NCBI RefSeq assembly: GCF_001689125.2
Contig: NZ_CP015405.2
Span: 4,428,501-4,492,500 of the forward strand
DNA: 64,000 nt
Reading direction: 5' to 3'
Source: Blautia pseudococcoides
GTDB lineage: Bacteria > Bacillota > Clostridia > Lachnospirales > Lachnospiraceae
Shown here: piece after piece, positions 3,555-48,833 of the stretch
How positions within the stretch are numbered: the first letter of the stretch is position 1
How the letters are laid out: each line of letters opens with the position of its first letter
Made by a program: the position numbers and the translations under genes
The notes under the pieces: model-generated
The model's database searches: none
Told to the model about the DNA's origin: nothing
What the model saw: only the letters and a program-made list of their open reading frames with translations

Positions 3555-3660
3555 TTGATTTCCTCCTGTGTAGTTTATATTATGAGCCAATACGAAAAAT
3601 TCATACTACCACGGACAGCCTCAAAAGAACAGGAGCAACTGATCAAGAATCAATTTACAA

Positions 3661-4704
3661 CTACCTGTTTGCAGAACGGCACTTTGCACAACTGTCACGC
3701 TGGGCCATGAAAAACGGAAGTTCAACTTTCATTGGAAGGGTGTGCCTGCCGTTTATGCGGTCTATTAATATACGTGCAGTCTGCCGGCCTAATTCTTCGA
3801 TGGGGATATGCACAGTGGTGAGCATGGGAGTTATGTATTGGGCCAGGTCAATATCATCCACGCTGATAACAGAAATATCCTTACTGACCTGTTTTTTATT
3901 TTCGTGAAAGGCTTTGATGGCGCCAATGGCGGTTAAATCATTTGCGCAGAAAACGGCTGTGAATTCCGAGCTGCTGTTCAAAAGTTTTTGGGCACCTCTG
4001 TATCCGCCGTCTGTAGATTGGAGCACATTGGCTGTATTATGAATGGTAAAGTTTAAATTATGCAGGGAGAGAGCATCCTTGTAGGCCAGAAAGCGGCATT
4101 CATTCGCCTGTTCTCCGATATAGGCGATTTTTTTATGCCCCAACTCTATTAAATGCTCCACTGCACTGATACCTGCCTTATAACCGTCGCAGATGACCTG
4201 GTCACATTTCAGGGGTATGGCATTGAGGCCTACATAGATAATGTTCTTGTAGACTTCTTTTAAAATTTTCAACTGTTCTTTTGTGAACATATATCTTCCC
4301 AGTATGACAAGGCCGCATATATTCCGCTCATCTGCCCGTATAATGGAATCCAGGGATTTGAGATCCATGGGGCGGTATGTATGCTTTACAATATAATTAT
4401 AATTAAATGCTTCCTGTTCCAGCGCGCGCTCCAGTTCAGAAAAAAACGGATCGGTATTCAGATTAGAGGTGCGGGCCTGGAGGCAGTCTATATAGTACAA
4501 CGGATTCTCTTTTGCGTCGGTAAGGGATGTTCTGCGTTTTAGATTTTGGGCCAGAAGGTTGGGGCTATAGCCGTTTTGGCGCACAATGGACCAGATTTTG
4601 TCACGTGTTTCTTTACTGGCAGCACCCTGTTCCTTTCCATTGACCACCCGTGAGACAGTTGAGATGGAGACACCTGCTTCTTTGGCGATATCTTTCAAGA
4701 TCAT
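3661..4704 (-). CDS. LacI family transcriptional regulator 2
   Basis: The protein is 347 residues. Its HTH (DIAKEAGVSISTVSRVVNGKE) matches regulator 1 at nearly every DNA-contacting position, and the effector domain follows the same plan (VFCANDLTAIGAI, then LTTVHIPIEELG). The start at 4704 follows a GAGGG site. It is transcribed away from the 13-gene operon, from a 393-bp intergenic region that contains two CAAACGTTTG-type operators. It probably represses that operon, itself and perhaps its downstream paralogue. The effector is probably the transported substrate or a catabolite (inference). Confidence 0.92.
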   Translation of the reverse strand: MILKDIAKEAGVSISTVSRVVNGKEQGAASKETRDKIWSIVRQNGYSPNLLAQNLKRRTSLTDAKENPLYYIDCLQARTSNLNTDPFFSELERALEQEAFNYNYIVKHTYRPMDLKSLDSIIRADERNICGLVILGRYMFTKEQLKILKEVYKNIIYVGLNAIPLKCDQVICDGYKAGISAVEHLIELGHKKIAYIGEQANECRFLAYKDALSLHNLNFTIHNTANVLQSTDGGYRGAQKLLNSSSEFTAVFCANDLTAIGAIKAFHENKKQVSKDISVISVDDIDLAQYITPMLTTVHIPIEELGRQTARILIDRINGRHTLPMKVELPFFMAQRDSCAKCRSANR

Positions 4705-4894
4705 AGAATTCCCTCCTCGTCCTGGTCATGTCTGAAAATCAAATCTTCCTGCAAAGCCTGATATACATTCTGCAGGTGCAGGAACCAATCCCCATATGCG
4801 GTTTATATTTTTAAGGATTCATCAGGTATGGGCAGCTGAAGCTGTCCTGTTTTTATTATATTGGAAAAATAAAATAATAAAATGCAAAATAATA

Positions 4895-4904
4895 CAAACG
4901 TTTG
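4895..4904. promoter_or_regulatory. LacI-type operator O1 (CAAACGTTTG)
   Basis: A perfect 10-bp palindrome with the central CG step typical of LacI-family operators. It lies in the region between lacI 2 and the transport operon. A near-identical site is centred exactly 101 bp downstream. Confidence 0.6.
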
Positions 4905-4968
4905 CGTATATATATGCTGTCCGGGACCGGATAAAAAAGTATAAGACAATACGAAAATAATAAACAAA

Positions 4969-5096: not shown

Positions 5097-6191
5097 ATGA
5101 AGAAAAGATTAGCGGTACTGTTAATGACGGGAATTTTAGGTGTAACCATGGCTGCGTGCGGCAGCGGAAATGAACGGAAAGAAGATTTGGAGACTGCAGG
5201 AAACGAGAGCAAAAGCGAAGATAAAATACCGCTTAAGATCAGTCATCATCCATATCTGCATGCGCTGCCCAGTATTTATGCAGAGGACAATGGGCTTTAC
5301 GATGCATTTGACTATACGATTGATATGTACGCAGGGGGGCCGGTGCAGAACGAAGCTATTGCATCCGGGGCCTGGGAAGTGGGGACCACAGGAATCGGCG
5401 GGGCTGTCCTTGGGTGTCCGGCGTACAATATGAAAGTGATCGGGTACTCCTGCGATGATACGCAGGCGCTGGATATCTGGGTGAGGGAGGATAGTGCACT
5501 GGCCGGCAAGGAGGCAGACGAGATGGGGGTCAGAGGGACTGCCCAGGACTGGAAAGGCAAAAAAATCCTTTGCCAGACAGGGACAACGTGTCATATGACC
5601 CTGATCGCTACCCTGGAACACCTGGGTCTTACTATGAATGACGTTGAGATCATTGATACGGCAGTAGCACAGTCATATGCTGCTTTTAAGGCGGGGGAGG
5701 CTGATATCGTGTGCCTGTGGTCACCGTTTGGATACCAGGCGGAGGATGATGAGGGCTGGGTAAAAGCAGCCGATGCAGGCGGTATGGGGCTAAAGATGCC
5801 CACGCTGATCGTTGCCACTGAGGATGCGGTTAAGAACAGACCCGAAGTGGTACAGGAGTGGCTGAACTGCTATCTGCAGTCAGTGGAAGAATTAAGAGCT
5901 GACCCGGAGGGCAGTGCTGAACTGCTGTTTGACTTTGAGGAGGAAGAAGGGATTTCCATGACAGAAGCAGCGGCCAGAAGAGATATAGAGACACGTATCT
6001 TCCCGTCCCTGGAGGAGAACCAAAAAGCTTTTGCGGAGGACGCGGAAGGAAACATCAGTGCCCAGGAGGATTTGCTGAAGTTTGCTGACTTTATGATATC
6101 ACAAGGGAAATTAACGGAGGCCGACAAACAGGCCATGATTGACAATAAAGCAGTTGACGGGACTTTTATGGCAAACGTTAAACTGGATTAA
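5097..6191 (+). CDS. ABC transporter substrate-binding lipoprotein (SsuA/TauA/NMT1 class)
   Basis: The protein is 364 residues. A lipoprotein signal ends in MAAC (Cys21), followed by a charged linker and an NMT1/SsuA-like binding domain. It has the class-typical EVGTTGIGGAV and AFKAGEADIVCLWSP segments, where the ligand's negatively charged end is usually held. The family binds sulfonates, taurine, nitrate, thiamine precursors and some carboxylates, and is not typical for neutral sugars. First gene of a 13-gene operon, started by GGGAGG with good spacing. The exact ligand is unknown. The context of sugar-isomerising enzymes without a kinase suggests a sulfonated or acidic sugar (inference). 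Confidence 0.88.
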   Translation: MKKRLAVLLMTGILGVTMAACGSGNERKEDLETAGNESKSEDKIPLKISHHPYLHALPSIYAEDNGLYDAFDYTIDMYAGGPVQNEAIASGAWEVGTTGIGGAVLGCPAYNMKVIGYSCDDTQALDIWVREDSALAGKEADEMGVRGTAQDWKGKKILCQTGTTCHMTLIATLEHLGLTMNDVEIIDTAVAQSYAAFKAGEADIVCLWSPFGYQAEDDEGWVKAADAGGMGLKMPTLIVATEDAVKNRPEVVQEWLNCYLQSVEELRADPEGSAELLFDFEEEEGISMTEAAARRDIETRIFPSLEENQKAFAEDAEGNISAQEDLLKFADFMISQGKLTEADKQAMIDNKAVDGTFMANVKLD

Positions 6192-6214
6192 GGTGTTTAA
6201 TGAGGTAAGTTATT

Positions 6215-7042
6215 ATGAACGAAACGAAAAAAAATGTGAGTTCTGTTCAGATTGAGGAGAGGAAGAGGGCAAGGGAGAAGGTACAGCTTTTTTTGATCTC
6301 CGCTGCCAGCGTGATGGTGTTTTTAGGTGTTTGGGAGACGGCTGTGCGTTTGGCCTGGGTGAACCCCCAGTTTGTCTGCTCCCCGTCAGAGGCATTCGCA
6401 GCATTTGTGGACAAGCTTACCCAGCCAAACCCTGACGGGGCGGTTCTGGGTATACATATCTGGGAAAGCCTGAAGCTGGCACTTATAGGATATGTAGCGG
6501 CAGCGGCCATAGGAGTCCCTCTGGGGCTGCTGTTGGGATATTATCGTACATTCGACAGACTGATAAACCCTATTTTTGAAATTATCCGTCCGATTCCGCC
6601 TATTGCCTGGATTCCGCTGTCAGTTATCTGGCTGGGAATAGGGACAACGGCAAAGTGTTTCATTATATTTCTGGCTGCCTTTGTCCCTTGTGTGATCAAT
6701 TCTTATACAGGAGTGAAGCTGACCAATCCGGTGCTGATTGACGTGGCAAAAACATGCGGGGCAAGCAGATGGAAAATTTTCATCACTGTTTGTACACCCT
6801 CCGCCATGCCCCTGGCATTTACGGGGATCAGGGTAGCTTTGGGCAATGCCTGGTCAACTCTGGTAGCGGCGGAAATGCTTTCTGCAACCGCGGGATTAGG
6901 ATATATGATCCAGCAGGGAAGGGCACTTGGAAGGTCAGACATAATCATTGTGGGAATGCTTACCATCGGAGTTATTGGGGCTGTTCTCACAGCGGTCCTG
7001 AATAAATTGGAGAACCGGGTAATCCGATGGAGGGCCGAATAA
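6215..7042 (+). CDS. ABC transporter permease 1 (SsuC/TauC type)
   Basis: The protein is 275 residues with about six membrane segments. The cytoplasmic coupling (EAA) loop follows KTCGASRWKIFITVCTPSAMP, and the IRPIPPIAWIPLSVIWLGIG motif is characteristic of nitrate/sulfonate/taurine permeases. It starts 23 bp after the binding-protein gene. Its stop TAA shares one base with the ATG of permease 2. It likely forms a heterodimer with permease 2, since the two share motifs but differ overall. Confidence 0.92.
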   Translation: MNETKKNVSSVQIEERKRAREKVQLFLISAASVMVFLGVWETAVRLAWVNPQFVCSPSEAFAAFVDKLTQPNPDGAVLGIHIWESLKLALIGYVAAAAIGVPLGLLLGYYRTFDRLINPIFEIIRPIPPIAWIPLSVIWLGIGTTAKCFIIFLAAFVPCVINSYTGVKLTNPVLIDVAKTCGASRWKIFITVCTPSAMPLAFTGIRVALGNAWSTLVAAEMLSATAGLGYMIQQGRALGRSDIIIVGMLTIGVIGAVLTAVLNKLENRVIRWRAE

Positions 7043-7815
7043 TGGAGAGACGCAAGATAAAAGACCTCTGCCTGACATGTATATCACTTACTGCGCTGAT
7101 TATTCTCTGGGTGATTGTTTCCAACAGCAAGCCGGACTTCTTTCCAACTCCTCAGGCGACCTGGGAGAGATTTGTAAAGATGGCGGAAAGGCCAATCAGC
7201 AGGACCACTATAACGGGACATATTTTGATCAGCTTAAAGCGTGTATTGTCAGCTCTTATTCTGGCAGTGGTCTCAGGTATCGGCATAGGCCTGATCATGG
7301 GATGGAGCAAACGGATGAACGCCGTGTTAAGTCCTATTTTGACAGCACTGCGTCCGATTCCGCCCATTGCCTGGATACCGTTGGTGATCCTGTGGTTTGG
7401 AATTGGAGAATTTTCTAAGGTTTTACTGGTGTTCATAGGTGCTTTTTTCCCGGTTGTATTGAATACAGCGACGGGTGTGGGTATGGTAGACCCCATGTAT
7501 TTAAATGCAGGGCGTGTCTATAATGCCAATACATTTCAAATGCTGCGCCATGTGGTAATGCCCGCAGCGCTTCCTGCAATCATGGCGGGAGTTAAGATCG
7601 CGCTGAGCAGCGGCTGGATGGTGGTAGTGGCAGCAGAGATGATAGCCAGCAAATCAGGCCTCGGTTTTTTGATCACAAGGGGAAATGAGAGCTATGACGT
7701 GGCTCTTGTGTTGTGCGGAATGATACTGATCGGCCTTGTCGGGGCAGTTTTAAGTGCGGTCTTCACATTAATGGAAAGGTGGTTGTGTCCGTGGACGGAA
7801 AAGAAAAACGGGTAA
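7042..7815 (+). CDS. ABC transporter permease 2 (SsuC/TauC type)
   Basis: The protein is 257 residues with six predicted membrane segments and the same LRPIPPIAWIPLVILWFGIGE motif as its neighbour. The coupling-loop equivalent is RVYNANTFQMLRHVVMPAALP. The ATG at 7042 lies 8 nt from GGAGGG and overlaps the previous stop (TAATG). The upstream in-frame ATG at 7027 lacks a ribosome site. Two distinct permeases are unusual for SsuABC importers, which normally use one permease as a homodimer. Confidence 0.9.
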   Translation: MERRKIKDLCLTCISLTALIILWVIVSNSKPDFFPTPQATWERFVKMAERPISRTTITGHILISLKRVLSALILAVVSGIGIGLIMGWSKRMNAVLSPILTALRPIPPIAWIPLVILWFGIGEFSKVLLVFIGAFFPVVLNTATGVGMVDPMYLNAGRVYNANTFQMLRHVVMPAALPAIMAGVKIALSSGWMVVVAAEMIASKSGLGFLITRGNESYDVALVLCGMILIGLVGAVLSAVFTLMERWLCPWTEKKNG

Positions 7816-8549
7816 AACTGAAATTAAAAAATATTTCAAAATCCTTCTATGCCAGGAAGGAGATCTTCGAAGCAGTGAATCAAATTTCCATGGATGTCTA
7901 TGAAAATGAATTCCTTGTCATACTGGGACCCGGCCAGTGCGGGAAAAGTGTACTGCTGAACATGATAAGCGGCCTGGAAGAGCCCACTGCCGGGGAGATA
8001 AAGTTTCCAAATAAGGATGAAAAAAAGGTGGGTTTTGTCTTCCAGAAAACAGCAGTGTTTCCCTGGAAGACAGTCATGCAGAATGTGGAGTTTTCTCAGG
8101 AGCTGAAGGGTGTGAATAAAGCGGAGAGAAGAAAACAGGCCCAGTACTTGATCGGGCTGGTTGGATTAAAAGGGTTTGAAGACTCCTATCCCCGTCAACT
8201 GTCGGGAGGAATGAAGCAGAGGGTGGGTATTGCCAGAGCTTACTGCAGCAATCCTGATATTTTACTGATGGACGAGCCTTTCGGGGCTCTTGATGCGCAG
8301 ACCCGGTATCAGATGGAAGAGGAAGTGCTCAGAATCTGGGAGAAGGAAAAACGTACTGTGATCTTTGTCACCAACAATATTGAGGAGGCAGTATATCTGG
8401 GTGACAGAATCATACTCCTCAGTGAGTGTCCGGCGTCAGTAAAAGAGATTTACCCACTGAAAGGCCTTCAGCGCCCGAGAGATTATGTGGATACAGAGTT
8501 TCTTAAAATGAGGGAAACGATAGAGAAAAATATGGATTTGGCATTATAA
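7785..8549 (+). CDS. ABC transporter ATPase 1 (SsuB/TauB type)
   Basis: About 254 residues with a full ATP-binding cassette: Walker A GPGQCGKS, Q-loop VFQKTAVFPWK, canonical signature LSGGMKQR, Walker B ILLMDEP and D-loop GALD. The switch-region His is replaced by Asn (FVTNNIEEA, where TH is usual). The start is uncertain. GTG at 7785 (5 nt after GGAAAGG) is preferred, with GTG at 7791 as an alternative. Both overlap the end of permease 2, so translation is probably coupled. It pairs with ATPase 2. Confidence 0.88.
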   Translation: MSVDGKEKRVKLKLKNISKSFYARKEIFEAVNQISMDVYENEFLVILGPGQCGKSVLLNMISGLEEPTAGEIKFPNKDEKKVGFVFQKTAVFPWKTVMQNVEFSQELKGVNKAERRKQAQYLIGLVGLKGFEDSYPRQLSGGMKQRVGIARAYCSNPDILLMDEPFGALDAQTRYQMEEEVLRIWEKEKRTVIFVTNNIEEAVYLGDRIILLSECPASVKEIYPLKGLQRPRDYVDTEFLKMRETIEKNMDLAL

Positions 8550-8570
8550 CATAGAAGGCAGGATGCACAT

Positions 8571-9314
8571 ATGGGAGAAGAGGTAAAGGTAAGAGTAGAA
8601 AACCTGACAAAGTGTTTTGGGGATCTGAAAGTTCTTGATCGGGTTTCCTTCCGGATTAAAAAGGGTGAATTTGTATGTATAGTAGGTCCTACAGGCTGCG
8701 GTAAGACTACATTTTTAAGGCTTTTAACAAAACTTACGGAGCCCACTTCAGGAGAAATTTACATAGACGGTGAACCGGCTGACCCTCAGAAACATAACAT
8801 ATCCTTTGTGTTTCAGGAGCCTTCGGCCTTTCCGTGGCTGACCGCGGAGGAAAATATCGAATACGGGCTGAAGATCAAAAAGAGGCCGGTCCGTGAAATA
8901 AAGACGCAGTCTGACAAGATCATAGGACTTCTCGGACTGGAAAAGTTCCGCAAAGCTTATCCCCACGAAATGTCAGTGAGTATGGAACAGAGAGTGGTGA
9001 TCGGCAGGGCATTTGCCATGAATCCCGACTTGCTGCTGATGGATGAGCCATATGGTCAGATGGATATTAAAATGAGGTATTTTCTGGAGGATGAGGTGAT
9101 CAAACTGTGGAAGGCAACAGGCAGTACGGTTTTGTTTATCACCCATAATCTGGAGGAGGCAGTATACCTGGCAGAGAAAATACTGATTTTATCAAATAAA
9201 CCTGCCAGGATAAAGGATGAGGTATTTGTGGAACTTCCAAGGCCCAGAGATATCGCGGATGAAAAGTTTGTTGAGATTAGAAAAAAGATAACAGAAGAGA
9301 TTAAGTGGTGGTAG
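8571..9314 (+). CDS. ABC transporter ATPase 2, degenerate signature motif
   Basis: The protein is 247 residues. Walker A GPTGCGKT, Walker B LLLMDEP and switch His (FITHNLEEA) are intact. The signature motif is MSVSM (residues 134-138) in place of LSGGQ/M, and the D-loop reads GQMD. In ABC dimers the signature of one subunit completes the ATP site of the other, so the pair with ATPase 1 should have one normal and one weakened site. ATPase 1 has the reciprocal oddity, lacking the switch His. This is the pattern of an asymmetric heterodimer (inference). Confidence 0.9.
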   Translation: MGEEVKVRVENLTKCFGDLKVLDRVSFRIKKGEFVCIVGPTGCGKTTFLRLLTKLTEPTSGEIYIDGEPADPQKHNISFVFQEPSAFPWLTAEENIEYGLKIKKRPVREIKTQSDKIIGLLGLEKFRKAYPHEMSVSMEQRVVIGRAFAMNPDLLLMDEPYGQMDIKMRYFLEDEVIKLWKATGSTVLFITHNLEEAVYLAEKILILSNKPARIKDEVFVELPRPRDIADEKFVEIRKKITEEIKWW

Positions 9315-9354
9315 GGTATGTTTGATTGATGCCGGAAGAGGCGGAGGGATATAC

Positions 9355-10131
9355 ATGAAAAATCTGAAAGGCAGAAAAGTGCTGGTGACCGGGGGTGCGC
9401 AGGGAATCGGATTTGCAGTGGCAGAGTGTTTTGCCGGGGAGGGCGCGGATGTTTTTATTGGAGATATCCGGGTTGAAAAAGCAGTGGAAGCAGCAAAAAC
9501 ACTGGAGGAGAAGTATGGAACTGCCAGCAAAGCATACAAGTTGGATGTGAGCAGCAGGGAAGGGATTCGTTCCTGTTTTGAAAGGTTCAAGGAGGAGCAG
9601 CATGTCCTGGATATTCTGATCAATAACGCGGGTATCCAGATCCGCAGGCCTTCCCTTGAATTTGAGGAGGAGAAGTGGGATCTGCTCATGAATATCAACT
9701 TAAAAGGAGCTTTCTATTGTGCCCAGGAAGCAGCGGGTATGATGAAGGACAGAGGTGGGGCCATTGTAAACATTTCCTCCGGGACATCAACAGAGACCCT
9801 GCCCGGAAGGGCACCGTACTGCATCAGCAAGGCGGGCATTAACGGCATGACGGCTGTTCTGGCGGCTGAGTGGGCAAAATATAACATCCGGGTAAATGCC
9901 GTAGCCCCAGGGTGGATCCTGACCCAGTTGCTGCTGGATGGGATGAACATGGGAATCGTCAGTGAGAAACAGATATTGGCAGCAGTACCAATGAAAAGGC
10001 TGGCTGATGTGAGAGAGATCGCCGGGCCTGTTGTCTACCTGGCATCCGATGAGGCCAGTTATGTGACAGGCCAGACTTTGTTTGTGGACGGGGGACAGAA
10101 TGCCCTGGGACTGCCGGATATGGGATTATGA
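9355..10131 (+). CDS. Short-chain dehydrogenase/reductase (SDR)
   Basis: The protein is 258 residues, a classical SDR with TGGAQGIG cofactor loop, NNAG, catalytic Ser in NISSGTST, and YCISK catalytic Tyr/Lys. It has the AVAPGWILT and FVDGGQ blocks of the FabG/gluconate-5-dehydrogenase/KduD group. The D residue after the second beta strand (IGDIR) suggests NAD(H). The ATG at 9355 follows GGAGGG, and the in-frame ATG at 9322 has no site. In this operon it probably oxidises or reduces a hydroxyl of the imported sugar-like compound. Confidence 0.88.
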   Translation: MKNLKGRKVLVTGGAQGIGFAVAECFAGEGADVFIGDIRVEKAVEAAKTLEEKYGTASKAYKLDVSSREGIRSCFERFKEEQHVLDILINNAGIQIRRPSLEFEEEKWDLLMNINLKGAFYCAQEAAGMMKDRGGAIVNISSGTSTETLPGRAPYCISKAGINGMTAVLAAEWAKYNIRVNAVAPGWILTQLLLDGMNMGIVSEKQILAAVPMKRLADVREIAGPVVYLASDEASYVTGQTLFVDGGQNALGLPDMGL

Positions 10132-10143
10132 GGAGGTGCAGGG

Positions 10144-10977
10144 ATGAGGCTGCAGAAAAACGAGAGAGAAATAACAAAGTATGCACAGGAAATACGGAAG
10201 AATACGATCATCAGTCTGCACAGCGCAGGTTCCGGTCATCCGGGGGGCGCTCTGTCCATAGTTGAGATGTTGGCAGTTCTGTATTTTTATGAGATGAACG
10301 TCAGTCCGGATAAACCGGAAGAGAGGATGCGTGACCGCTTTGTCCTATCTAAAGGTCATGCAGCGCCATCTTATTATGCAGCTTTGGCAGAAAGAGGCTA
10401 TTTTGAAAAAAGTGTTCTGAAAACACTCAGGAAAATGGGAAGTATTCTACAGGGGCACCCGGATATGAAAAAGGTACCGGGGGTTGACATGTCCACCGGT
10501 TCACTGGGGCAGGGCATATCAGCAGCGTGTGGAATGGCCCATTACGCAAAAAGAACAGGGGCAGACTACAGAGTTTACTGCATCATAGGAGACGGGGAAA
10601 TGCAGGAAGGACAGGCGTGGGAGGCATTCATGAGTGCGGGACATTTTAAACTTGATAATCTTGTAGTGCTTTTGGATAACAATAATTTACAGATTGACGG
10701 AAGAGTAGACCAAGTCATGTCTGTATATCCCGTGAAAGAAAAACTACAGGCTTTTGGATGGAATGTGGAGGAGACGGACGGACATCATGTGAAAGGGTTG
10801 ATAGAGACACTGGACCATGCCAGGCAGGTAAAAGATAAGCCGGCTTTCATTATAGGAAAAACGGTGAAGGGCAAAGGAATATCGTTTATGGAGAACCAGG
10901 CAGGATGGCATGGGGCAGCCATCAATGAAGAACAATTTAAACAGGCCATGAAAGATCTGGGGGAGGAATGCATATGA
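10144..10977 (+). CDS. Transketolase, N-terminal (TPP-binding) subunit
   Basis: The protein is 277 residues, the typical length for the first half of a split transketolase. It has GSGHPGG (His31), SKGHAAP (His72) and the thiamine-diphosphate/metal motif GDGEMQEGQAWEA (149 onward) ending in LLDNNN. With the next gene it forms a two-subunit enzyme that transfers a two-carbon ketol unit between sugars. Split transketolases often belong to dedicated catabolic operons, such as apulose-4-phosphate and sulfoquinovose transketolases, rather than the housekeeping pentose pathway. Started by AGGAGG. Confidence 0.92.
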   Translation: MRLQKNEREITKYAQEIRKNTIISLHSAGSGHPGGALSIVEMLAVLYFYEMNVSPDKPEERMRDRFVLSKGHAAPSYYAALAERGYFEKSVLKTLRKMGSILQGHPDMKKVPGVDMSTGSLGQGISAACGMAHYAKRTGADYRVYCIIGDGEMQEGQAWEAFMSAGHFKLDNLVVLLDNNNLQIDGRVDQVMSVYPVKEKLQAFGWNVEETDGHHVKGLIETLDHARQVKDKPAFIIGKTVKGKGISFMENQAGWHGAAINEEQFKQAMKDLGEECI

Positions 10978-11918
10978 GTTCAACAAGAGAGGCATATGGT
11001 GCTGCGCTGACAGAATTAGCTGAAAAATATGAGTTTTTTGTTTTTGACGCCGACTTATCAAAGGCTACCCAGACAGTGCATTTCGCAAAGAAATATCCGG
11101 ACCGGTTTACAGATATGGGCATTGCTGAATGTAATATGATGGGATATGCGGCAGGATACGCGGCCAGCGGAGCAGTGGTATTTGCAAGCACATTTGCTGC
11201 GTTTGCGGCGGGCAGGGCTTATGACCAGATCAGGAACAGTATCGCATATCCAAATCTGAATGTAAAGATTGCAGCCACACACGGCGGGGTCCTGATTGGG
11301 GCGGACGGCGGCTCTCACCAGTGTGTGGAGGATCTGGCCCTTATGAGGGCAGTTCCCAATATGGCTATTCTCTATCCCGCAGACACTACAGAGACAAAAA
11401 GGTGTGTTGAGGAGGCAATAAAATATAAAGGGCCTGTTTATCTCCGGTTTGGAAGACTGGATTCGCCGGAGATATATACTGGTGCAAAAGTGTGCAGAGC
11501 CGGAATCGGAAAGGGGACCCTGGTGCGGGATGGACAGGACGTGACGATTGTGGCTGTGGGGGATATGGTGAGCAGGGCACTGGAGGCTGCAGGAAGGCTG
11601 CAGGAGGACGGCATCTGTGCGGAAGTGATGGATATGGCGTCTGTCAAACCGATAGATGCAGAAATGCTCCTGGAATCCGTGAAAAAAACAGGATGTGCAG
11701 TGACGGCAGAGGATCATAATGTTCTGGGAGGACTGGGGGGAGCCGTCAGTGAAGTGCTTTCTAAACAGTATCCGGTTCCGGTGGAAATGGTTGGAGTGCA
11801 GGATGTGTTTGGCTGTTCAGGTGTGCCTGGTGAGCTGGCAGTACATTATGGACTGACCAGTAAAAATATAATTGAGGCAGTACAAAGGACAATAAAGAGA
11901 AAAGAGGGGAAATCATGA
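10974..11918 (+). CDS. Transketolase, C-terminal (pyrimidine-binding) subunit
   Basis: The protein is 314 residues. It carries the pyrimidine-binding domain with the catalytic-type Glu in DMGIAECNMMGYAAG and a transketolase C-terminal domain. The ATG at 10974 overlaps the preceding stop (ATGA) and sits 7 nt from GGAGG. The ATG at 10968 is only 1 nt from it. The RFGR segment, expected to contact the substrate's anionic end, is present, so I cannot say from this subunit whether phosphate is accepted. Confidence 0.92.
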   Translation: MSSTREAYGAALTELAEKYEFFVFDADLSKATQTVHFAKKYPDRFTDMGIAECNMMGYAAGYAASGAVVFASTFAAFAAGRAYDQIRNSIAYPNLNVKIAATHGGVLIGADGGSHQCVEDLALMRAVPNMAILYPADTTETKRCVEEAIKYKGPVYLRFGRLDSPEIYTGAKVCRAGIGKGTLVRDGQDVTIVAVGDMVSRALEAAGRLQEDGICAEVMDMASVKPIDAEMLLESVKKTGCAVTAEDHNVLGGLGGAVSEVLSKQYPVPVEMVGVQDVFGCSGVPGELAVHYGLTSKNIIEAVQRTIKRKEGKS

Positions 11919-12937
11919 GAAAAATAGTTTTTGAAAGTCCCCGAAAAGCGGTGATCAAACAGGCCGAAAAACCTATATGCGGGAGCGGGCAGGTGCTGCT
12001 CAAGATGAAACGGATTGGGGTGTGCGGAACAGATATCCAGGTATTTGCGGGAAAAAACAGGTATATGGAGTTTCCTATAGTGCCGTTCCACGAGGGAATC
12101 GCCGTGGTGGAAGAGACAGGAGAGGGCGTGTGTGATATAGAGCCTGGCAGTCTGGTTACTATCCGCCCTATTTTGAGCTGTAATACGTGTTATTCCTGTA
12201 AGAGGGGAAGGGAAAATGCCTGTATGAATTTTAATTCATTGGGCGTACAGTCCGACGGACTTGGCGCGGAGTATTTTGTGATCAGCAGGGAATATGTGTA
12301 CCCGCTGGACAGGGACGCTGATTTAGACAAGGTTATTTTTATTGAACCCTTTGCTGTAGGGGTACATGCGGCCTATCAGGGGGAGGTGCAGGGCAAAAAA
12401 GTTCTGGTTGTGGGCGGAGGGACCATAGGGAATTTTACGGCTCAGGCCTGCAGGCTGGCCGGCGCAGAGAAAACTGCAGTTTGTGATATCAGTCAGGATA
12501 AAGTCACAATGGCAAAGCGGTCGGGGATCGCGTTGTGCGTCAATACATCAGAACTCACCCTGGAACAGGCATCACAGAAATGCTTTGGCGGATTTCCGGA
12601 TGTGATCATTGACTGCGCAGCCGTCCCGTCAGTTTTTTCCGGGATCTTAGAGCTGGCCGGAAAGACGACCACCATTGTGATCGTTGGGAATTACAGCGTT
12701 TTGGTGGAAACAGACATTGCAAAAATCCAGAGAAATGAACTTACAGTGAAAGGATGTATCACATACCGGGAGGAAGATTTTATAAGGGCAAAAGAGTTGA
12801 TAGAGAAAGGCCGAGTTTATCTGGATGGTTTTCTATCAAAGAGATACTGTTTTTCACAGGTTCAGGAGATGATGGAGCAGGCAATGGAGAATAAAGGGAT
12901 AAACATGAAAACTATCATGGACTTTGAGGGGGAATGA
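11915..12937 (+). CDS. Zinc-dependent medium-chain alcohol dehydrogenase
   Basis: The protein is 340 residues. The catalytic zinc region is GVCGTD plus the His of PFHEG. The structural zinc cluster CNTCYSCKRGRENAC is complete, and the nucleotide loop is VVGGGTIG. It is closest in layout to the sorbitol/threonine/L-idonate dehydrogenase group. The start ATGA overlaps the transketolase stop, so translation is coupled. With the SDR it gives the operon two independent oxidoreductases, a common means of inverting a hydroxyl by oxidation and reduction. The substrate is unknown. Confidence 0.9.
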   Translation: MRKIVFESPRKAVIKQAEKPICGSGQVLLKMKRIGVCGTDIQVFAGKNRYMEFPIVPFHEGIAVVEETGEGVCDIEPGSLVTIRPILSCNTCYSCKRGRENACMNFNSLGVQSDGLGAEYFVISREYVYPLDRDADLDKVIFIEPFAVGVHAAYQGEVQGKKVLVVGGGTIGNFTAQACRLAGAEKTAVCDISQDKVTMAKRSGIALCVNTSELTLEQASQKCFGGFPDVIIDCAAVPSVFSGILELAGKTTTIVIVGNYSVLVETDIAKIQRNELTVKGCITYREEDFIRAKELIEKGRVYLDGFLSKRYCFSQVQEMMEQAMENKGINMKTIMDFEGE

Positions 12938-12939
12938 GA

Positions 12940-13611
12940 ATGTATCATATTGCGCCGACTTTGCTGTGCGCAGACCTTTTTCAAATGAGGGAAAGCATGG
13001 ATATTCTGGACCGGATGGGAATCGACTGGTTTCATATAGATGTAATGGATGGGAGTTTTGTGCCGAATTTTGCCTTTGGTACGGATTTCCTTAGACAGAT
13101 GACCGCAGTGGGGAAAAGCCCCTTTTATTTACATCTAATGGTCACCAGACCGGAGGAATACGTGGATTTATATGCAGAGGCCGGGGTGGAATATTATTGT
13201 TTTCATTATGAGGCGGTCAAGAACCCGTTTCGGCTGTGCCAAAAAATCAGGGTACAGGGCATGAAACCGGCCATTGCATTGAATCCGGCTGCGCCGATCC
13301 ATGTTCTGCGGGATTTGATCCCTTATTTGGATGCAGTGACACTTATGTCAGTGGAACCCGGATTCTCAGGACAGAATTTTATGGATTTTACATACCGCAG
13401 GATTGGAGCGTTAAGGGCAATGGCAAAAGGACATAAGCTTTTGATCGAGGTTGACGGCGGCATAGATAATGAGATTGCAAAGAAATGTATAGATGCGGGC
13501 TGTGATGTTGTGGTAGGAGGATATTTTACACTGTTTCAGAAGGGAAAGTCAATAGAGGATAATTATGAGGCATTTCAGAGGGCTGTAGAAGGATGCCGGA
13601 CCGGGGGATGA
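12940..13611 (+). CDS. Ribulose-phosphate 3-epimerase-like protein (RPE/AlsE family)
   Basis: The protein is 223 residues, a TIM barrel with the RPE metal and catalytic set: FHIDVMDG (His32, Asp34), LHLMVTRP (His65) and IEVDGG (Asp172). MVTRP and EPGFSGQNF resemble D-allulose-6-phosphate 3-epimerase. In family members the phosphate is held late in the barrel by a loop such as AGSAIF or VGTSGLF. Here the loop reads VGGYFTLF (192-199), with one extra residue and a bulky Tyr where a small Ser/Thr is expected. The chemistry is therefore likely conserved, but the anion pocket is changed. The start at 12940 is 7 nt from GAGGGGG, and 12934 is too close. Confidence 0.85.
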   Translation: MYHIAPTLLCADLFQMRESMDILDRMGIDWFHIDVMDGSFVPNFAFGTDFLRQMTAVGKSPFYLHLMVTRPEEYVDLYAEAGVEYYCFHYEAVKNPFRLCQKIRVQGMKPAIALNPAAPIHVLRDLIPYLDAVTLMSVEPGFSGQNFMDFTYRRIGALRAMAKGHKLLIEVDGGIDNEIAKKCIDAGCDVVVGGYFTLFQKGKSIEDNYEAFQRAVEGCRTGG

Positions 13612-13616
13612 GTAGT

Positions 13617-14342
13617 ATGGAACTAAAAGAGTTGAAACAGATGGTGGTGGAGGCAAATAAAGAACTGCCTCGCCGTAAACTGGTCAAATATTCCTGGGGG
13701 AATGTGAGTGCAGCGGACAGGGAAAGGGGTATTATCATCATAAAACCTGTTGGAGTGCCCTATGAAAATCTGACAGAGGAAAATATCAGTGTTGTGACAA
13801 AGGATGGAAAAATACTGGGGGAATCCTGGGCGCCATCTGTGGATTTGGATATTCACAGGGCCATCTATGAGAATTTCCCCGGTGTCAATGCCATTGTCCA
13901 TACACATTCCACTTATGCAACAATTCTGGCTCAGCTCAGACTCCCGTTAGCCTGCTTTGGGACCACACATGCAGACTATTTTGCAGGCGATGTTCCCTGC
14001 GTCAGGGAGCTGGAGGAGAAAGAGATCCTTGACAGGTACGAATGGAATACAGGGATGACAATTGTGGACTACTTTAAAGAGAACCATATTTCTCCGGAGG
14101 ATATTCCGGCCGCCCTAACACCTGGGCACGGTCCGTTTACATGGGGAGAGGATGTGTGGGACGCTGTCCACAAATCCGTTGTGCTGGAAGAGATAAGCAA
14201 AATGGCGGTTCATATGCTGTGCATAGATAAAAACGTACAACCTCTGAAACGAGCCGTGGCCCACAGACATTATAACAGAAAACATGGGGCTGATGCAGCT
14301 TTCACAAAAGATGATCACGGGCACGGGATGATACAGAGATAG
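13617..14342 (+). CDS. L-ribulose-5-phosphate 4-epimerase-like protein (AraD/class II aldolase)
   Basis: The protein is 241 residues and aligns end to end with AraD. Zinc ligands His95, His97 and His171, acid/base Asp120 and the C-terminal Tyr229 are all kept, as are WGN (Asn29), Lys43 and Gly46. Of the residues that bind the substrate phosphate in AraD, two serines are replaced: KPSG becomes KPVG (Val45), and PSSD becomes PSVD (Val75). This predicts an active epimerase or retro-aldolase with poor affinity for phosphate. The ATG at 13617 is 9 nt from GGGGG and matches the AraD N-terminus. Confidence 0.87.
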   Translation: MELKELKQMVVEANKELPRRKLVKYSWGNVSAADRERGIIIIKPVGVPYENLTEENISVVTKDGKILGESWAPSVDLDIHRAIYENFPGVNAIVHTHSTYATILAQLRLPLACFGTTHADYFAGDVPCVRELEEKEILDRYEWNTGMTIVDYFKENHISPEDIPAALTPGHGPFTWGEDVWDAVHKSVVLEEISKMAVHMLCIDKNVQPLKRAVAHRHYNRKHGADAAFTKDDHGHGMIQR

Positions 14343-14364
14343 AAGGAATGGGGGGATTCAAAAA

Positions 14365-15210
14365 ATGAAGTATATATTTGCAAACTTAAAACGGTTCGAT
14401 ATACCAAAGGAACTGGATGGGATTAATGGTTTAGCCCCGGTCAGTAAGTGGGGAAGCTGTCTGACCGAGCAGATACGGGAGACTATGGATCAATATGCTG
14501 CCCAGGCAGAAATTGGAATTTTTTATCCGGAAGCCTATCTTCTTCAGGCAGCGGAGGCGAAAGGGGCAGAGGATAAGTGGAAGATAGGGGTGCAGGGTAT
14601 TTACCGGAAGGATACAGAAAAGGAAGGAAACTTTGGCGCATTTACCACTAACAGGACAGCTAAAAGTGTGAAAGCCATGGGATGTGAATACGTTTTGATC
14701 GGACACTGTGAGGAGCGCATGGACAAGGCCGGGATTCTGGCAGAGGCGGGAGTGGTGGATCCGAAAGCTGTGAACAGGCTTTTAAACGAAGAAGTTTCCT
14801 GTGCGGTAAAGGCAGGTCTCTCTGTCTTGTATTGCGTGGGGGAGACTGAGGAGGAACAGGACAGATGGCAGGAGGTTATAGGGCAGCAGCTAGATGTGGG
14901 GCTGTATCAAGTGAATCTGTCAGGGATCGCCGTGGCTTATGAACCTCTTTGGGCAATAGGACCCGGGAAGCCCGTTCCGGATGCTGATTATATTACTAAG
15001 GTGGCTGAATTTATTAAATTACGCACTGGAGGCTGTCCGGTAATATATGGGGGTGGACTGAAGGAGGAAAATGCCCGTATGCTGGCAGAGATCCCGTGCG
15101 TGGACGGGGGCCTGATCGGACTTACGAATTTCAGCGGTGAGATCGGATTTTATCCGGAGGGATTTGCCGCTATCATAGAAAAATATCTGGGGGAAGGTGA
15201 TGTGGTATGA
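14365..15210 (+). CDS. Divergent triosephosphate isomerase-family protein
   Basis: The protein is 281 residues, longer than housekeeping TIM (about 250). The catalytic residues are in place: Asn7/Lys9 (ANLKRF), His114 (IGHCEER) and Glu193 with flexible loop 6 (AYEPLWAIGPGK). The two loops that grip phosphate differ from normal TIM. GGSV is GGGL (229-232), and VGGASL is IGLTNF (251-256). It is therefore unlikely to be the glycolytic enzyme. It is better seen as an aldose-ketose isomerase for another small sugar, as for EryH/tetrulose-phosphate isomerases, or for a non-phosphorylated analogue. Confidence 0.86.
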   Translation: MKYIFANLKRFDIPKELDGINGLAPVSKWGSCLTEQIRETMDQYAAQAEIGIFYPEAYLLQAAEAKGAEDKWKIGVQGIYRKDTEKEGNFGAFTTNRTAKSVKAMGCEYVLIGHCEERMDKAGILAEAGVVDPKAVNRLLNEEVSCAVKAGLSVLYCVGETEEEQDRWQEVIGQQLDVGLYQVNLSGIAVAYEPLWAIGPGKPVPDADYITKVAEFIKLRTGGCPVIYGGGLKEENARMLAEIPCVDGGLIGLTNFSGEIGFYPEGFAAIIEKYLGEGDVV

Positions 15211-16658
15211 AACTGGATTTTGAATATGGCACCGGCACCATGCCGGCTGATCTGCCGGATGAACTGACGGATGTTTTTATTCCGGGCATAACGGTCTCTG
15301 ATCCTGCCTGCATTTCCAGGAACCAACTGGTAAATAAGACAAGGGAATCTATTTTAAACCCCATAGGAATGCCGCCGCTTTCGGAACTGGCCGGCAAAGG
15401 AAGTACCGTGACAATAACAATTCCGGATATTGTAAAAGGGGGCTGCCAGCCAACCTCACATAGAAAACTGTCTGTTAAGCTGATTTTGGAAGAATTATAT
15501 AAGGCTGGTGTGGAGAAGAAAGATATTCTTTTGATATTTTCCAATGGCCTGCATCCCAGAACAAACAAAAAGGAGATGCGGCAGATTCTGGGGGATGAAC
15601 TTTTTCATGAATTTTACTATTCCCATCAGATCATCAGCCATGACAGCGAGGACTACGAACATCTGGTTGATCTGGGCTGCACGGAACGGGGCGACAGAGT
15701 TCTTATGAATAAATACGTCTATGATTCTGACATCCCCATATTGATCGGGCACACCCAGGGGAACCCTTATGGCGGATATTCCGGGGGATATAAGCACTGC
15801 GCCACGGGAATTACACACTGGAGAAGCATTGCGTCACATCATATCCCTGATGTGATGCACGGAAGTGATTTTACACCTGTCAATAACCATTCGCTCATGA
15901 GAACAAAGTTCGATGAGATTGGAATGCATATGGAAAAATGTATGGGTAAGAAATTTTTCTGCTGCGATGCTGTTTTGGATACCATATCCCGGCAAATAGA
16001 AATCAACAGCGGGTATGCAAAAGAAATGCAGCCACTCTCCTGGCAGACTGCTGACAGAAGGACATATGTGCCCTGGGCGGAAAAGAAATATGATGTGATG
16101 GTATTTGGCATGCCTCAGGATTTTCATTACGGGGATGGCATGGGGACAAATCCAATTCAGATGATGCAGGCTTTATCGGCACAGGTCGTCCGTCATAAGA
16201 GAGTCATGAGCGACAACTGTGTGATCCTATGTTCATCCACCTGCAACGGCTATTTTCACGATGAGCGCTGGCCCTATCTGCGGAAGCTCTATGAAATGTT
16301 CCAGCATGATCATATGAATATACTTCCTGATATGGATAAGTACGGTGAGTATTTTGCTACGGATGAGGAATATATAAGGAAATACCGTTTTGCCGGCGCG
16401 TTTCACCCTTATCATGGGTTTTCTATGATGAGCTGCGGCCATATAGCAGAGATGAATACATCTGCCATATATATTGTGGGGGCGCAGGAGCCTGGAATCG
16501 CAAGGGGAATGGGATTGAAGACCCGGGCCACATTTGAGGAGGCACTGGAGGATGCCATGAAGAAATATGTAGGGGATAAGCCGAATATCCTGGCTTTGCC
16601 GCTGGCGTTTAAGAGGGCTTCGGTTCATCTTTGTATGAAGGGAAATAAAGAAATATAA
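15207..16658 (+). CDS. LarA family nickel-pincer 2-hydroxyacid racemase/epimerase
   Basis: The protein is 483 residues. The LarA catalytic and cofactor positions can be recognised: NGLHPRT (His116), IGHTQG (His182), YSGGYKHCATG (Lys196, the lysine that bears the Ni-pincer cofactor in lactate racemase) and SIASHH (His211). The family racemises or epimerises alpha-hydroxyacids, including lactate, malate and some aldonates. The ATG overlaps the preceding stop (ATGA). Maturation genes larB, larC and larE are not in the window and would have to act in trans. Its presence suggests that a hydroxyacid is an intermediate of the operon's pathway (inference). Confidence 0.85.
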   Translation: MKLDFEYGTGTMPADLPDELTDVFIPGITVSDPACISRNQLVNKTRESILNPIGMPPLSELAGKGSTVTITIPDIVKGGCQPTSHRKLSVKLILEELYKAGVEKKDILLIFSNGLHPRTNKKEMRQILGDELFHEFYYSHQIISHDSEDYEHLVDLGCTERGDRVLMNKYVYDSDIPILIGHTQGNPYGGYSGGYKHCATGITHWRSIASHHIPDVMHGSDFTPVNNHSLMRTKFDEIGMHMEKCMGKKFFCCDAVLDTISRQIEINSGYAKEMQPLSWQTADRRTYVPWAEKKYDVMVFGMPQDFHYGDGMGTNPIQMMQALSAQVVRHKRVMSDNCVILCSSTCNGYFHDERWPYLRKLYEMFQHDHMNILPDMDKYGEYFATDEEYIRKYRFAGAFHPYHGFSMMSCGHIAEMNTSAIYIVGAQEPGIARGMGLKTRATFEEALEDAMKKYVGDKPNILALPLAFKRASVHLCMKGNKEI

Positions 16659-16687
16659 AAGTCATTTTGAGGATAAGTATAAAATAC

Positions 16688-16729
16688 AGCCTTTTTGATA
16701 AATACCTGTTGCGTATTATCAAAAGGGCT
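16688..16729 (+). terminator. Hairpin at the end of the 13-gene operon
   Basis: A stem of about 17 bp (arms 16688-16705 and 16713-16729, one bulged A, loop of 7) lies 30 bp after the LarA stop. There is no long T-run. It probably terminates or protects the operon transcript. Confidence 0.6.
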
Positions 16730-16819
16730 ATATGATTTTAGTCAGACATGGGAATTCATGGATGAAAAGAATCGGAGCTGTATCCTGAAACACGGTTTGA
16801 CACCATTTCCCCCATGTGA

Positions 16820-17078
16820 TAATATGAAGTTAATGTAAGCAGCGGACAGGATGCAAAGAATGCTGCCAAATAAAATAACGCAATCTGCCGTAAGGGGAAT
16901 CAGGTGTGAATCCTGAGCGATGTGGTCACTGTAATTAGGATCAAAGTCCTATAAGCCAGAATACCTTGCGCCGGATGGAATGAAGCTTCCGTACAAAGCC
17001 ATGCATTCCGGACTCTCTATAAGCACATATATAGATTCGGAAACAGGTCGGCAGTGGAAAGCCGGCCTGTTTTTTATT
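16820..17078 (+). ncRNA. Cobalamin riboswitch with expression-platform terminator
   Basis: The conserved core is recognisable: GGGAATCAGGTGTGAATCCTG (16905 on), GGTCACTGTAA and the B12-box-like AAGCCAGAATACCTTG (16953-16968). An intrinsic terminator follows at 17043-17078: stem ACAGGTCGGC/GCCGGCCTGT, loop of 8, then a T-run. The arrangement is a classic OFF switch, in which corrinoid binding would favour termination ahead of the DUF4430 gene. Exact 5' boundary is approximate. Confidence 0.88.
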
Positions 17079-17143
17079 GTGAAACTGGCTTCGGTGCGGA
17101 AATCCTGAAACCGGGAATTGTTTTACAAAGGAAGGAGTAGAAC

Positions 17144-17548
17144 ATGAAGGAGAAAAGCAGCAATAAAAAAGTGATCATAGGAGCCGCCGCCCTTGTTTTG
17201 GTATGCGTAGCCCTGCTCCTGGTTTACAAGAACTTTATGCCAAAAGGTACAGAGGGTGCAAAAACGATCACTGTAAAAGTAGTACATGGGGACAGCAGTG
17301 AAAAAGATTTTGAGTATAAAACTGACGAGGCATATTTGGGAGCTGTGATCCAGGACAACAAGCTGGTGAAAGGGGAAGAAGGAGAGTACGGGCTTTTCAT
17401 AACATCAGTGGACGGCGAGAAAGCAGATGAATCCAAACAGCAGTGGTGGTGTCTTACAAAAGGCGGGGAGCAGGTGAATACATCGGCAGATCAGACGCCC
17501 ATAGAGGACGGGGACACTTTTGAACTGACTTTGACCGAAGGTTATTGA
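17144..17548 (+). CDS. Membrane-anchored DUF4430 (transcobalamin-like) protein
   Basis: The protein is 134 residues. A basic N-terminus and one membrane segment (about 9-28) are followed by an extracytoplasmic DUF4430 domain with the typical W-rich QQWWCLTKGG and EDGDTFELTL ending. DUF4430 shares its fold with the C-terminal domain of cobalamin-binding transcobalamin/intrinsic factor. It is first behind a cobalamin riboswitch and 1 nt ahead of the S-component frame. It probably captures corrinoids at the surface and passes them to the S component (inference from context). RBS GGAAGGAG. Confidence 0.85.
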   Translation: MKEKSSNKKVIIGAAALVLVCVALLLVYKNFMPKGTEGAKTITVKVVHGDSSEKDFEYKTDEAYLGAVIQDNKLVKGEEGEYGLFITSVDGEKADESKQQWWCLTKGGEQVNTSADQTPIEDGDTFELTLTEGY

Positions 17549-17569
17549 TTGAAAGGATGCGGGGTACCA

Positions 17570-18085
17570 ATGAAAACAAGGTCTCTGGTTATATTGGCAA
17601 TGCTGACAGCCATATTGTTCGCAGGTCAGGTGTGTATGGCTGTGTTTCCCAATATTGAAATCGTCACATTGCTGGTGATCCTGTATACACAGGTGTACAG
17701 GAAAAGGGTTTTCTTTATTATTTATGCATTTGCACTGCTGGAAGGTGTTTTTTACGGCTTTGGCATCTGGTGGTTCAACTATCTGTACATCTGGAGCATC
17801 CTGGCTTTGATCGTGATGTTTGTACGCAGTGAGTCTCCGGTTGTATGGAGCATTATATCCGGCGCGTATGGGCTGGCATTTGGCTTTTTGTGTTCCCTGC
17901 CGTATTTCATGTCAGGCGGCTTAGGCGGAGGCATGGCTTACTGGGTATCGGGCATGTACTTTGATGTGGTGCACTGTGTGGCCAATGTGATCATATGCCT
18001 GGCATTATATAAACCGCTGCACTTTATTTTAAGGAAGCTTGAGCATGTGCCGGCAAACGTATCAGCAGGTGCGCAAATGAGATAG
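17570..18085 (+). CDS. ECF transporter S component, probable corrinoid specificity
   Basis: The protein is about 171 residues with five to six membrane helices, the size and hydropathy of ECF-type substrate-specific subunits. It carries a helix-1 A-x-x-x-A-like segment (ILAMLTAILFAGQ) expected to contact the T component. The ATG at 17570 is used. A TTG at 17549 would directly follow the previous stop. No EcfA/EcfT genes are nearby, so it probably uses a shared energising module. Vitamin B12-type specificity is inferred from the riboswitch and DUF4430 partner. Confidence 0.82.
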   Translation: MKTRSLVILAMLTAILFAGQVCMAVFPNIEIVTLLVILYTQVYRKRVFFIIYAFALLEGVFYGFGIWWFNYLYIWSILALIVMFVRSESPVVWSIISGAYGLAFGFLCSLPYFMSGGLGGGMAYWVSGMYFDVVHCVANVIICLALYKPLHFILRKLEHVPANVSAGAQMR

Positions 18086-43336: not shown

Positions 43337-43381
43337 ACAGAAACAGGCACATATGAAGGATGTGTTTTTTCTATCGGGAAA

Positions 43382-43397
43382 TGTGGAGCGCTACACA
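43382..43397. promoter_or_regulatory. LacI 3 operator, GH4 operon copy 2
   Basis: TGTGGAGCGCTACACA is a palindrome apart from one base pair, 61 bp centre to centre from copy 1 and just before the GH4 ribosome site. Confidence 0.6.
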
Positions 43398-43419
43398 AAC
43401 AATAAAGGAGGTCAATCAT

Positions 43420-44685: not shown

Positions 44686-44700
44686 GCCAGGAGGCAAAGT

Positions 44701-45693: not shown

Positions 45694-45712
45694 TGGGAAA
45701 AGGAGATAAAAT

Positions 45713-47053: not shown

Positions 47054-47081
47054 GTACAGAGAGGGAAAGTGAGGCAGTAGT

Positions 47082-47960: not shown

Positions 47961-47971
47961 GAGGAGCCGGT

Positions 47972-48808: not shown

Positions 48809-48833
48809 GAGCAGATAATAAAGAGGTGAGAGC

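Follow-up and report, generated by a model that had tools for sequence, protein, structure and literature searches.

A candidate pathway for sugars ending in a non-phosphate anion, built around a single-histidine LarA homolog in Blautia pseudococcoides and its relatives

A 13-gene operon ending in a LarA homolog

We analyzed a 64,000-nucleotide stretch of the Blautia pseudococcoides genome (the window; contig NZ_CP015405.2, positions 4,428,501 to 4,492,500; the genome is a single contig of 5.13 Mb). On its + strand, from position 5097 to 16658, lie 13 open reading frames (ORFs) that form an operon with an importer at one end and a homolog of the nickel-pincer enzyme LarA at the other. All are free of internal stops, and neighboring ORFs overlap by 4 to 16 bases or sit 12 to 40 bases apart (with starts at 9355 for the short-chain dehydrogenase and at 13608 for the AraD homolog). 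A first-pass annotation had described 13 tightly coupled genes, and family scans bore out the label given to each of them.

The first five genes encode an ATP-binding cassette (ABC) importer, consisting of a lipoprotein binding protein resembling SsuA/TauA (5097 to 6191; type SBP1), two permeases (6215 to 7042, TauC type; 7027 to 7815, SaoP/TauC type), and two ATPases (7713 to 8549, with the real start probably within the ORF, and 8571 to 9314). The earlier label of a sulfonate-class importer stood as a likeness to SsuA but not as membership of the curated family, as the binding protein missed the cutoff of TIGR01728 (96.2 versus 163.5 bits); permeases and ATPases also scored below their equivalog cutoffs. 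A short-chain dehydrogenase (SDR; 9355 to 10131) follows, which exceeded the cutoff of subfamily PRK07231 (223.6 versus 215 bits) and for which a longer TTG start is possible at 9322. Next come the thiamine diphosphate-binding N half (10144 to 10977; PF00456) and the C half (10968 to 11918; PF02779 and PF02780) of a transketolase, then a Zn-dependent medium-chain dehydrogenase (11915 to 12937; PF08240 and PF00107). Homologs of the 3-epimerase RPE (12934 to 13611), the 4-epimerase AraD (13608 to 14342), and triosephosphate isomerase (TIM; 14365 to 15210) lead up to LarA (15207 to 16658). The TIM homolog is divergent, its closest named relative (84% identical) being found in Blautia sp. AF13-16. 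Family scans found no kinase, phosphotransferase system (PTS), or phosphatase among the 13 genes. The order of these genes is not a matter of chance, because all 13 recur in the same order in six related loci (L018, L019, L033, L035, L036, and L047; tblastn on 16 selected loci).

The LarA homolog belongs to a subfamily with a single catalytic histidine. It matched PDB entries 9q3j and 9q2u with 856 and 810 bits, and relatives that scored like these matches were 71 to 77% identical. Entries 9q3j, 9q2u, and 9q3k are LarA homologs of Blautia wexlerae (LarA_Bw) and Streptococcus plurextorum (LarA_Sp) (PMC12611868; we assigned entries to the two proteins from the number of entries). According to the excerpted text of that study, the subfamily has Asn instead of the second catalytic His, its substrate and reaction were left open, and LarA_Sp showed no lactate racemization; carbohydrate metabolism was proposed. 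TIM was reported in the gene context of both proteins, with phosphofructokinase (PFK) and phosphoglucose isomerase (PGI) in S. plurextorum and with fructose-bisphosphate aldolase (FBA) and glucosamine-6-phosphate isomerase in B. wexlerae (PMC12611868, excerpted text). The window protein shares with LarA_Bw and LarA_Sp the catalytic His (His116), the Asn replacing the second His (Asn186), the lysine binding the nickel-pincer nucleotide (NPN; Lys196), the histidines of the Ni region, and the dimer Arg. His116, Asn186, and Lys196 were invariant in 111 of 111 LarA rows, as were the three conserved histidines of the Ni-ligand region and the dimer-motif Arg (mapped by motif). The earlier label of a hydroxyacid racemase was thus too strong, and we rejected lactate racemase as the function, given Asn186 and the published negative result for LarA_Sp. 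The same excerpts describe no transketolase-type operon, no loss of phosphate motifs, and no exchange between PFK and transketolase, and a term search of two papers on the LarA superfamily found no mention of transketolase or triose.

The subfamily is patchily distributed: of 392 genomes sampled from the order, 29 carry it (E <= 1e-100). A gene of the LarC family (PF01969) lies elsewhere in the window genome (G000:C1:1125335). In L036 and L197, LarC (by Pfam) is encoded near LarA together with LarB-like and PP-loop (LarE-like) genes (PF00731 checked in L197). Downstream of the TIM-LarA pair of L197 (genome G220), positions 11558 to 17121 hold a CbiM-type cobalt/nickel uptake gene, an ATPase, LarC, and the PP-loop and LarB-like genes; upstream lie AraD, transketolase, RPE, and a xylose-isomerase-like barrel.

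Modular context of the LarA loci

The 94 LarA loci that we assembled comprise the window, 13 found in related genomes, and, out of 283 in named genomes, the best 80; L187 and L188 duplicated L063 and L084 and were left out. The genera holding them include Blautia, Hungatella, Enterocloster, Flavonifractor, and Oscillibacter. Loci were picked by LarA, so that its presence is by construction; the other genes are independent of the selection. Each locus spans up to about 20 kb, and contig ends cut some of them. Family labels rest on a scan of one representative per family (the name LarE for the PP-loop protein is ours); gene clusters in at least 11 loci were all labeled, and rarer ones were partly annotated. 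The gene caller overlooked genes beneath long antisense ORFs, and it overlooked LarA in L076.

TIM was called in 78 of the 94 loci, a lower bound as it is also present in L019, L027, L050, L075, L096, and L038, and it lay immediately upstream of LarA in 74 of 93. PFK, whose representative scored over the cutoff of the pyrophosphate (PPi)-type model PRK14072, occurred in 71 loci and transketolase in 10; 13 loci had neither. No locus had both, either among the 94 or among the 111 of the tree set. Further families were class II aldolase (59 loci), NagB-like proteins (46), a second SsuA-type binding protein, SBP2 (44), NagA-like proteins (43), and PGI (19). Among the 71 PFK loci, TIM accompanied the kinase in 66, aldolase in 54, NagA or NagB in 50, either type of binding protein in 43, and TauE in 26. 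The entry genes kept to fixed partners: the window type SBP1 had the Zn dehydrogenase family alongside in 13 of 13 loci and NagA/NagB never, and SBP2 had NagA or NagB in 43 of 44 loci and the Zn dehydrogenase never. In L070 and L073, the window type of importer is combined with PFK. On a LarA tree (quick method, 111 rows), the label PFK or transketolase switches five times, with at least four switches forced by well-supported branches, and the lower module has therefore been re-coupled repeatedly. Given the mutual exclusion of PFK and transketolase and the pairings of the entry genes, the locus is modular, with two entry modules, two cleavage modules, and one TIM-LarA end.

Two arguments of the first-pass annotation did not survive this comparison. 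It had called the pathway kinase free and had regarded a kinase linked to the operon in relatives as evidence to the contrary. The 13 window genes do lack a kinase, but this is not a core property, since 71 of the 94 loci pair the same LarA with a PPi-type PFK. Because this kinase would act at C1, its presence does not count against the idea of a phosphate mimic. The split transketolase had been read as a sign of the sulfoglycolytic transketolase (sulfo-TK) route; it is not diagnostic, because another transketolase of the window genome (L002, G000:C1:3612625) is likewise split into open frames of about 303 and 314 amino acids (aa).

Some LarA loci had other neighbors. In L032, L034, L067, and L088, a LarA of the subfamily without a called TIM is preceded by a protein of 650 to 700 aa from the type I phosphodiesterase superfamily (Pfam checked in L088), and L034 has an additional dehydrogenase of the 3-hydroxyisobutyrate dehydrogenase (3-HIBDH) family and a xylose-isomerase-like barrel. 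L198, L201, and L204, from genomes of another family, hold TIM-LarA pairs, and none of PFK, transketolase, aldolase, NagA, and NagB was called in the surrounding 10 kb or so. Near the PFK-type loci L066, L087, L103, and L190, we noted an apparent second type of sugar uptake (a binding protein of about 450 aa and a MalG-like permease, labeled by eye).

Phosphate sites of the sugar-phosphate enzyme homologs

We compared motifs of TIM, RPE, AraD, PGI, NagB, class II aldolase, and PFK, leaving out sequences whose length fell below 75% of the median for their family (rows used: TIM, 75/79; PFK, 68/71; FBA, 56/64; PGI, 16/19; NagB, 44/46; RPE, 7/7). Comparison copies came from five of the same genomes (TIM, 6; RPE, 5, one of them partial; PGI, 6; NagB, 8; FBA, 10; PFK, 13 of 20 nonoperon matches), and AraD was compared with E. 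coli AraD alone. We took TIM S211, G232, and G233, NagB K208, the SGTT loop of PGI, the RPE loops, and the AraD serines to bind phosphate and PFK R162, R243, H249, and R252 to form the C6-phosphate site.

In the operon copies, catalytic residues stayed and phosphate sites were rebuilt. TIM kept catalytic Lys12 in 74 of 75 copies and His95 and Glu165 in all 75 (the window copy retains all three). YGGS had become YGGG in 75/75 (comparison copies, YGGSV in 6/6), and VGGAS had become [AG]LT[RKN]F, again in 75/75 (IGLTN in the window), with loss of the Gly232-Gly233 pair in every copy; the rebuilt site carried Arg or Lys in 73 of 75. Operon NagB kept its catalytic motifs, with ATGSTP replaced by PVG--P, a loop two residues shorter, in 44/44 and GxxKA replaced by RxWHR in 43/44; five of the eight NagB comparison genes had the textbook loop, and three were divergent, including a window gene at 48834 to 49724. 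PGI had AKNFxTLEP in place of SKSGTTTEP in all 16 copies (SKSGTTTE in 6/6 comparison copies). The AGS motif of RPE was replaced in 7/7 (by GGY in six, including the window, and by CGP in L054); in the window protein, metal and catalytic motifs are kept and GFGGQ has changed to GFSGQ. AraD, in which the metal His motifs of the window copy are kept, had Val at both phosphate serines in 7/7 (KPVG and PSVD, compared with KPSG and PSSD in E. coli). Canonical copies of TIM, RPE, PGI, and NagB in the five genomes retain the usual motifs, a few divergent paralogs aside (NagB scored over the cutoff in four of the five, and no canonical PGI was found in G039).

As an internal control, the motif for the phosphate of dihydroxyacetone phosphate (DHAP) in the operon aldolase, NVDT, was kept in 54 of 56 copies, as would be expected if C1 receives a phosphate from the kinase. 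PFK retained R243 and R252 in 68/68, and therefore C6 still seems to bear an anion. Phosphate motifs replaced beside intact catalytic motifs, together with the retained PFK arginines and aldolase motif, argue that the sugar end probably carries an anion (X) other than phosphate. The first-pass suggestion that something replaces phosphate thus held up, and the pattern fits a mimic such as sulfonate or sulfate.

The divergent NagB homolog of the window (phosphate loop PAGSTV) is part of a separate sugar operon (43360 to 49724) with a GH4-family glycosidase, a BadF-family (sugar-kinase-like) protein, and a sugar ABC importer (by eye). Two LacI-family regulators on the - strand (2523 to 3590 and 3661 to 4704) diverge from the 13-gene operon, and LacI-family genes were present in 39 of the 94 loci. 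Short palindromes lie upstream of the operon at 4787 to 4804 and 4904 to 4917; promoter and terminator scans stayed at chance level (22 found versus a mean of 18.8 and 8 versus 10.6, respectively). Downstream, positions 17144 to 18085 encode two further proteins, one of the DUF4430 family (134 aa) and one of membrane type that has no Pfam match (178 aa), which adjoin the operon in L018 and L019 as well.

Proposed route and the nature of the anion

From the gene content, its conservation, the altered phosphate motifs, and the interchangeable upper parts, all of them observed, we infer the substrates, the identity of X, the order of reactions, and the LarA reaction outlined here. The operon may import and degrade a sugar (or a sugar alcohol or acid) ending in a non-phosphate anion, most likely a sulfur oxyanion, with a sulfate ester likelier than a sulfonate; we give this reading about even chances. 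After uptake through the SsuA-type importer, the SDR and the Zn dehydrogenase, in either order, would set the oxidation state or configuration, and the RPE and AraD homologs would act on C3 and C4, yielding D-xylulose-5-X. Transketolase would then hand a C2 unit to a normal phosphosugar acceptor, leaving D-glyceraldehyde-3-X, which the TIM homolog would interconvert with dihydroxyacetone-3-X before the nickel-pincer LarA performs the final conversion. In relatives, the same TIM-LarA end would be supplied by a parallel glycolysis (NagA, NagB, PGI, PPi-phosphofructokinase, and class II aldolase); the substrate that fits this glycolysis best is N-acetylglucosamine 6-sulfate. Either cleavage module would thus probably yield glyceraldehyde-3-X, the hub passed on to TIM and LarA. 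TIM and LarA seem to end the route in the glycolysis-type loci, because the Zn dehydrogenase, the sole reductase-type family among clusters in at least 11 loci, never joins NagA/NagB.

The SsuA-like importers, the TauE/SafE exporters, and NagA/NagB together suggest a sulfur oxyanion. TauE/SafE genes occur in 32 of the 94 loci, in 22 of them no more than three called genes away from LarA, which suggests that a sulfur oxyanion leaves the cell. The NagA/NagB-like genes in 50 of the 71 kinase loci suggest a 6-substituted N-acetylhexosamine rather than sulfoquinovose (SQ), and N-acetylglucosamine 6-sulfate is our leading guess for the relatives that bear these genes. This sugar is freed from mucin by B. 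bifidum, which, in the part of the study available, does not assimilate it (PMC11186840). A DUF4838-type gene occurs in eight loci, all of them PFK loci with NagA or NagB, and in seven it stands in one run with the binding protein and NagA or NagB. Its representative matches NAGLU_N weakly, and one DUF4838 protein carries the listed name GH163. GH185, the 6-sulfo-GlcNAcase family, is a distant relative of GH163. The DUF4838 protein had no NCBIfam match, and none of its 120 homologs among the matches listed bore a name.

Several observations weigh against this reading. Both SsuA-type binding proteins score below the family cutoff, and their superfamily also takes non-sulfur ligands. TauE lies outside the window operon, with two copies elsewhere in the genome. 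The rebuilt TIM site has Arg in 70 of 75 copies but Asn in the window, and 13 of 16 PGI copies have acquired a Glu, which does not obviously favor an anion. PFK has His at R162 and Ile or Leu at H249 in 68/68; these changes are no special mark, as Arg or His is likewise missing at these positions from 6 of 13 comparison PFKs. L031, a transketolase locus, had no TIM called, and neither PFK nor transketolase was called in 13 loci. Sulfatase-family genes were found in all nine related genomes searched, so a sulfatase-free route is not forced, and we dropped sulfatase-free life as an argument; the sulfatase family also includes non-sulfatases.

The window operon resembles the sulfo-TK and sulfo-TK/TAL (transaldolase) pathways of Clostridium sp. 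MSTE9 and Faecalicatena, which, in the part of the account available, have a transketolase acting on a sugar with sulfonate for phosphate, a normal phosphosugar acceptor, an ABC importer, and an isomerase (PMC11659671). RpiB-family genes were found in L031 and L039. Of the gene families of the sulfo-TK pathway, the SQ isomerase, an RpiB-type isomerase (the family of SqwI), and sulfoacetaldehyde reductase were not recognized in the 13 window genes, which instead encode RPE, AraD, TIM, and LarA homologs; family scans found no sugar isomerase beyond the TIM homolog and no sulfonate exporter among them. The version in relatives would share its isomerase-C1 kinase-aldolase logic with the sulfo-Embden-Meyerhof-Parnas (sulfo-EMP) pathway of E. 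coli, in which the sugar is isomerized, phosphorylated at C1, and split by an aldolase into DHAP and a C3 compound with X; it differs in its PPi-PFK and class II aldolase families, its entry through NagA/NagB, and TIM plus LarA replacing the C3 reductase. With the L-ascorbate (Ula) route, where a 3-epimerase followed by an AraD-type 4-epimerase leads to a D-xylulose-5-X type of product, the window would have this order of steps in common. The 13-gene operon differs in lacking a PTS, a lactonase, and a decarboxylase, in having a 3-epimerase of the RPE family, and in its changed phosphate sites. In line with the earlier claim of a new combination, titles and abstract openings in the open-licence literature searched showed no pathway joining such epimerases with LarA.

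A subcase of the favored reading takes X as sulfonate only, making the system a sulfo-TK/sulfo-TAL type of sulfoglycolysis branch in which TIM isomerizes sulfolactaldehyde and LarA finishes. We consider it unlikely. NagA/NagB in 50/71 PFK loci would require an N-acetylated sulfonated hexosamine, and to our knowledge none occurs in nature; the window operon moreover lacks the RpiB-type isomerase and the exporter. In its favor, the L034 dehydrogenase matches sulfolactaldehyde 3-reductase below the cutoff (131 of 348 bits), L031 unites transketolase, a transaldolase-family protein, an RpiB-type isomerase, and TauE with LarA, much like the sulfo-TK/TAL tool kit (PMC11659671, in part), and a TauE of E. 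gilvus is the probable exporter of 3-sulfopropionate (PMC11489063, in part). If X were a carboxylate, uronic or aldaric acids would be cleaved to tartronate semialdehyde plus DHAP (or a C2 unit), TIM would turn the semialdehyde into hydroxypyruvate, and LarA would act on the 2-hydroxy acid. This is very doubtful: N-acetylhexosaminuronates are rare but NagA/NagB are common in these loci, SsuA-type importers and TauE exporters would not be expected, and LarA lacks its second catalytic His. It would, however, agree with a gene of the tartronate-semialdehyde-reductase family that adjoins LarA in L034 (NF008592, 164.6 bits; cutoff, 397) beside the xylose-isomerase-like barrel, and with the 2-hydroxy acids on which characterized LarA enzymes act (PMC12611868 and PMC11770544, both in part).

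The enzymes might also handle ordinary phosphosugars, with a kinase elsewhere or import of the phosphate form, and the sequence changes would then be drift or retuned affinity. The two phosphate-binding arginines held by PFK in 68/68 would suit this, but replacements fixed in 75/75, 44/44, and 16/16 copies next to unchanged catalytic motifs, together with canonical paralogs in five genomes examined for them, make it improbable. Least probable, in our view, is that X is absent (a free OH or a deoxy end) and the enzymes use unphosphorylated sugars. Lost phosphate contacts alone would fit a neutral end, yet new cationic residues are conserved (RxWHR in NagB, 43/44; Arg or Lys in TIM, 73/75), and PFK R243/R252 are retained throughout.

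For the favored reading of a sulfur oxyanion, one extension would have 6-sulfated sugars (from mucin or keratan sulfate) degraded without a sulfatase to glyceraldehyde-3-sulfate, from which TIM and LarA would, redox neutrally, give D-lactate (or methylglyoxal) and free sulfate. We hold this extension to be distinctly unlikely. As a matter of speculation, turning glyceraldehyde-3-sulfate into D-lactate and sulfate would require NPN as the only cofactor and only the D-side histidine; the missing second His of LarA would then be explained, because the D-specific half-reaction alone would be required. If true, the desulfation would be of a new enzymatic kind and would add a new class of reactions to those of the nickel-pincer cofactor.

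The interpretation in the first-pass annotation is thus partly supported; its main thought holds, and its kinase-free and split-transketolase arguments fail. The system is best seen as a variant of sulfoglycolysis-like metabolism ending in an orphan nickel enzyme. It ties single-His LarA to a whole group of central-metabolism enzymes of gut Firmicutes whose phosphate sites have been rebuilt, and it offers a testable role for a LarA subfamily already represented by cryo-electron microscopy structures. If X is sulfonate, the pathway would be a further branch of sulfoglycolysis. If it is sulfate, the pathway would show how gut bacteria use sulfated monosaccharides freed by mucin degraders and what becomes of the sulfate.

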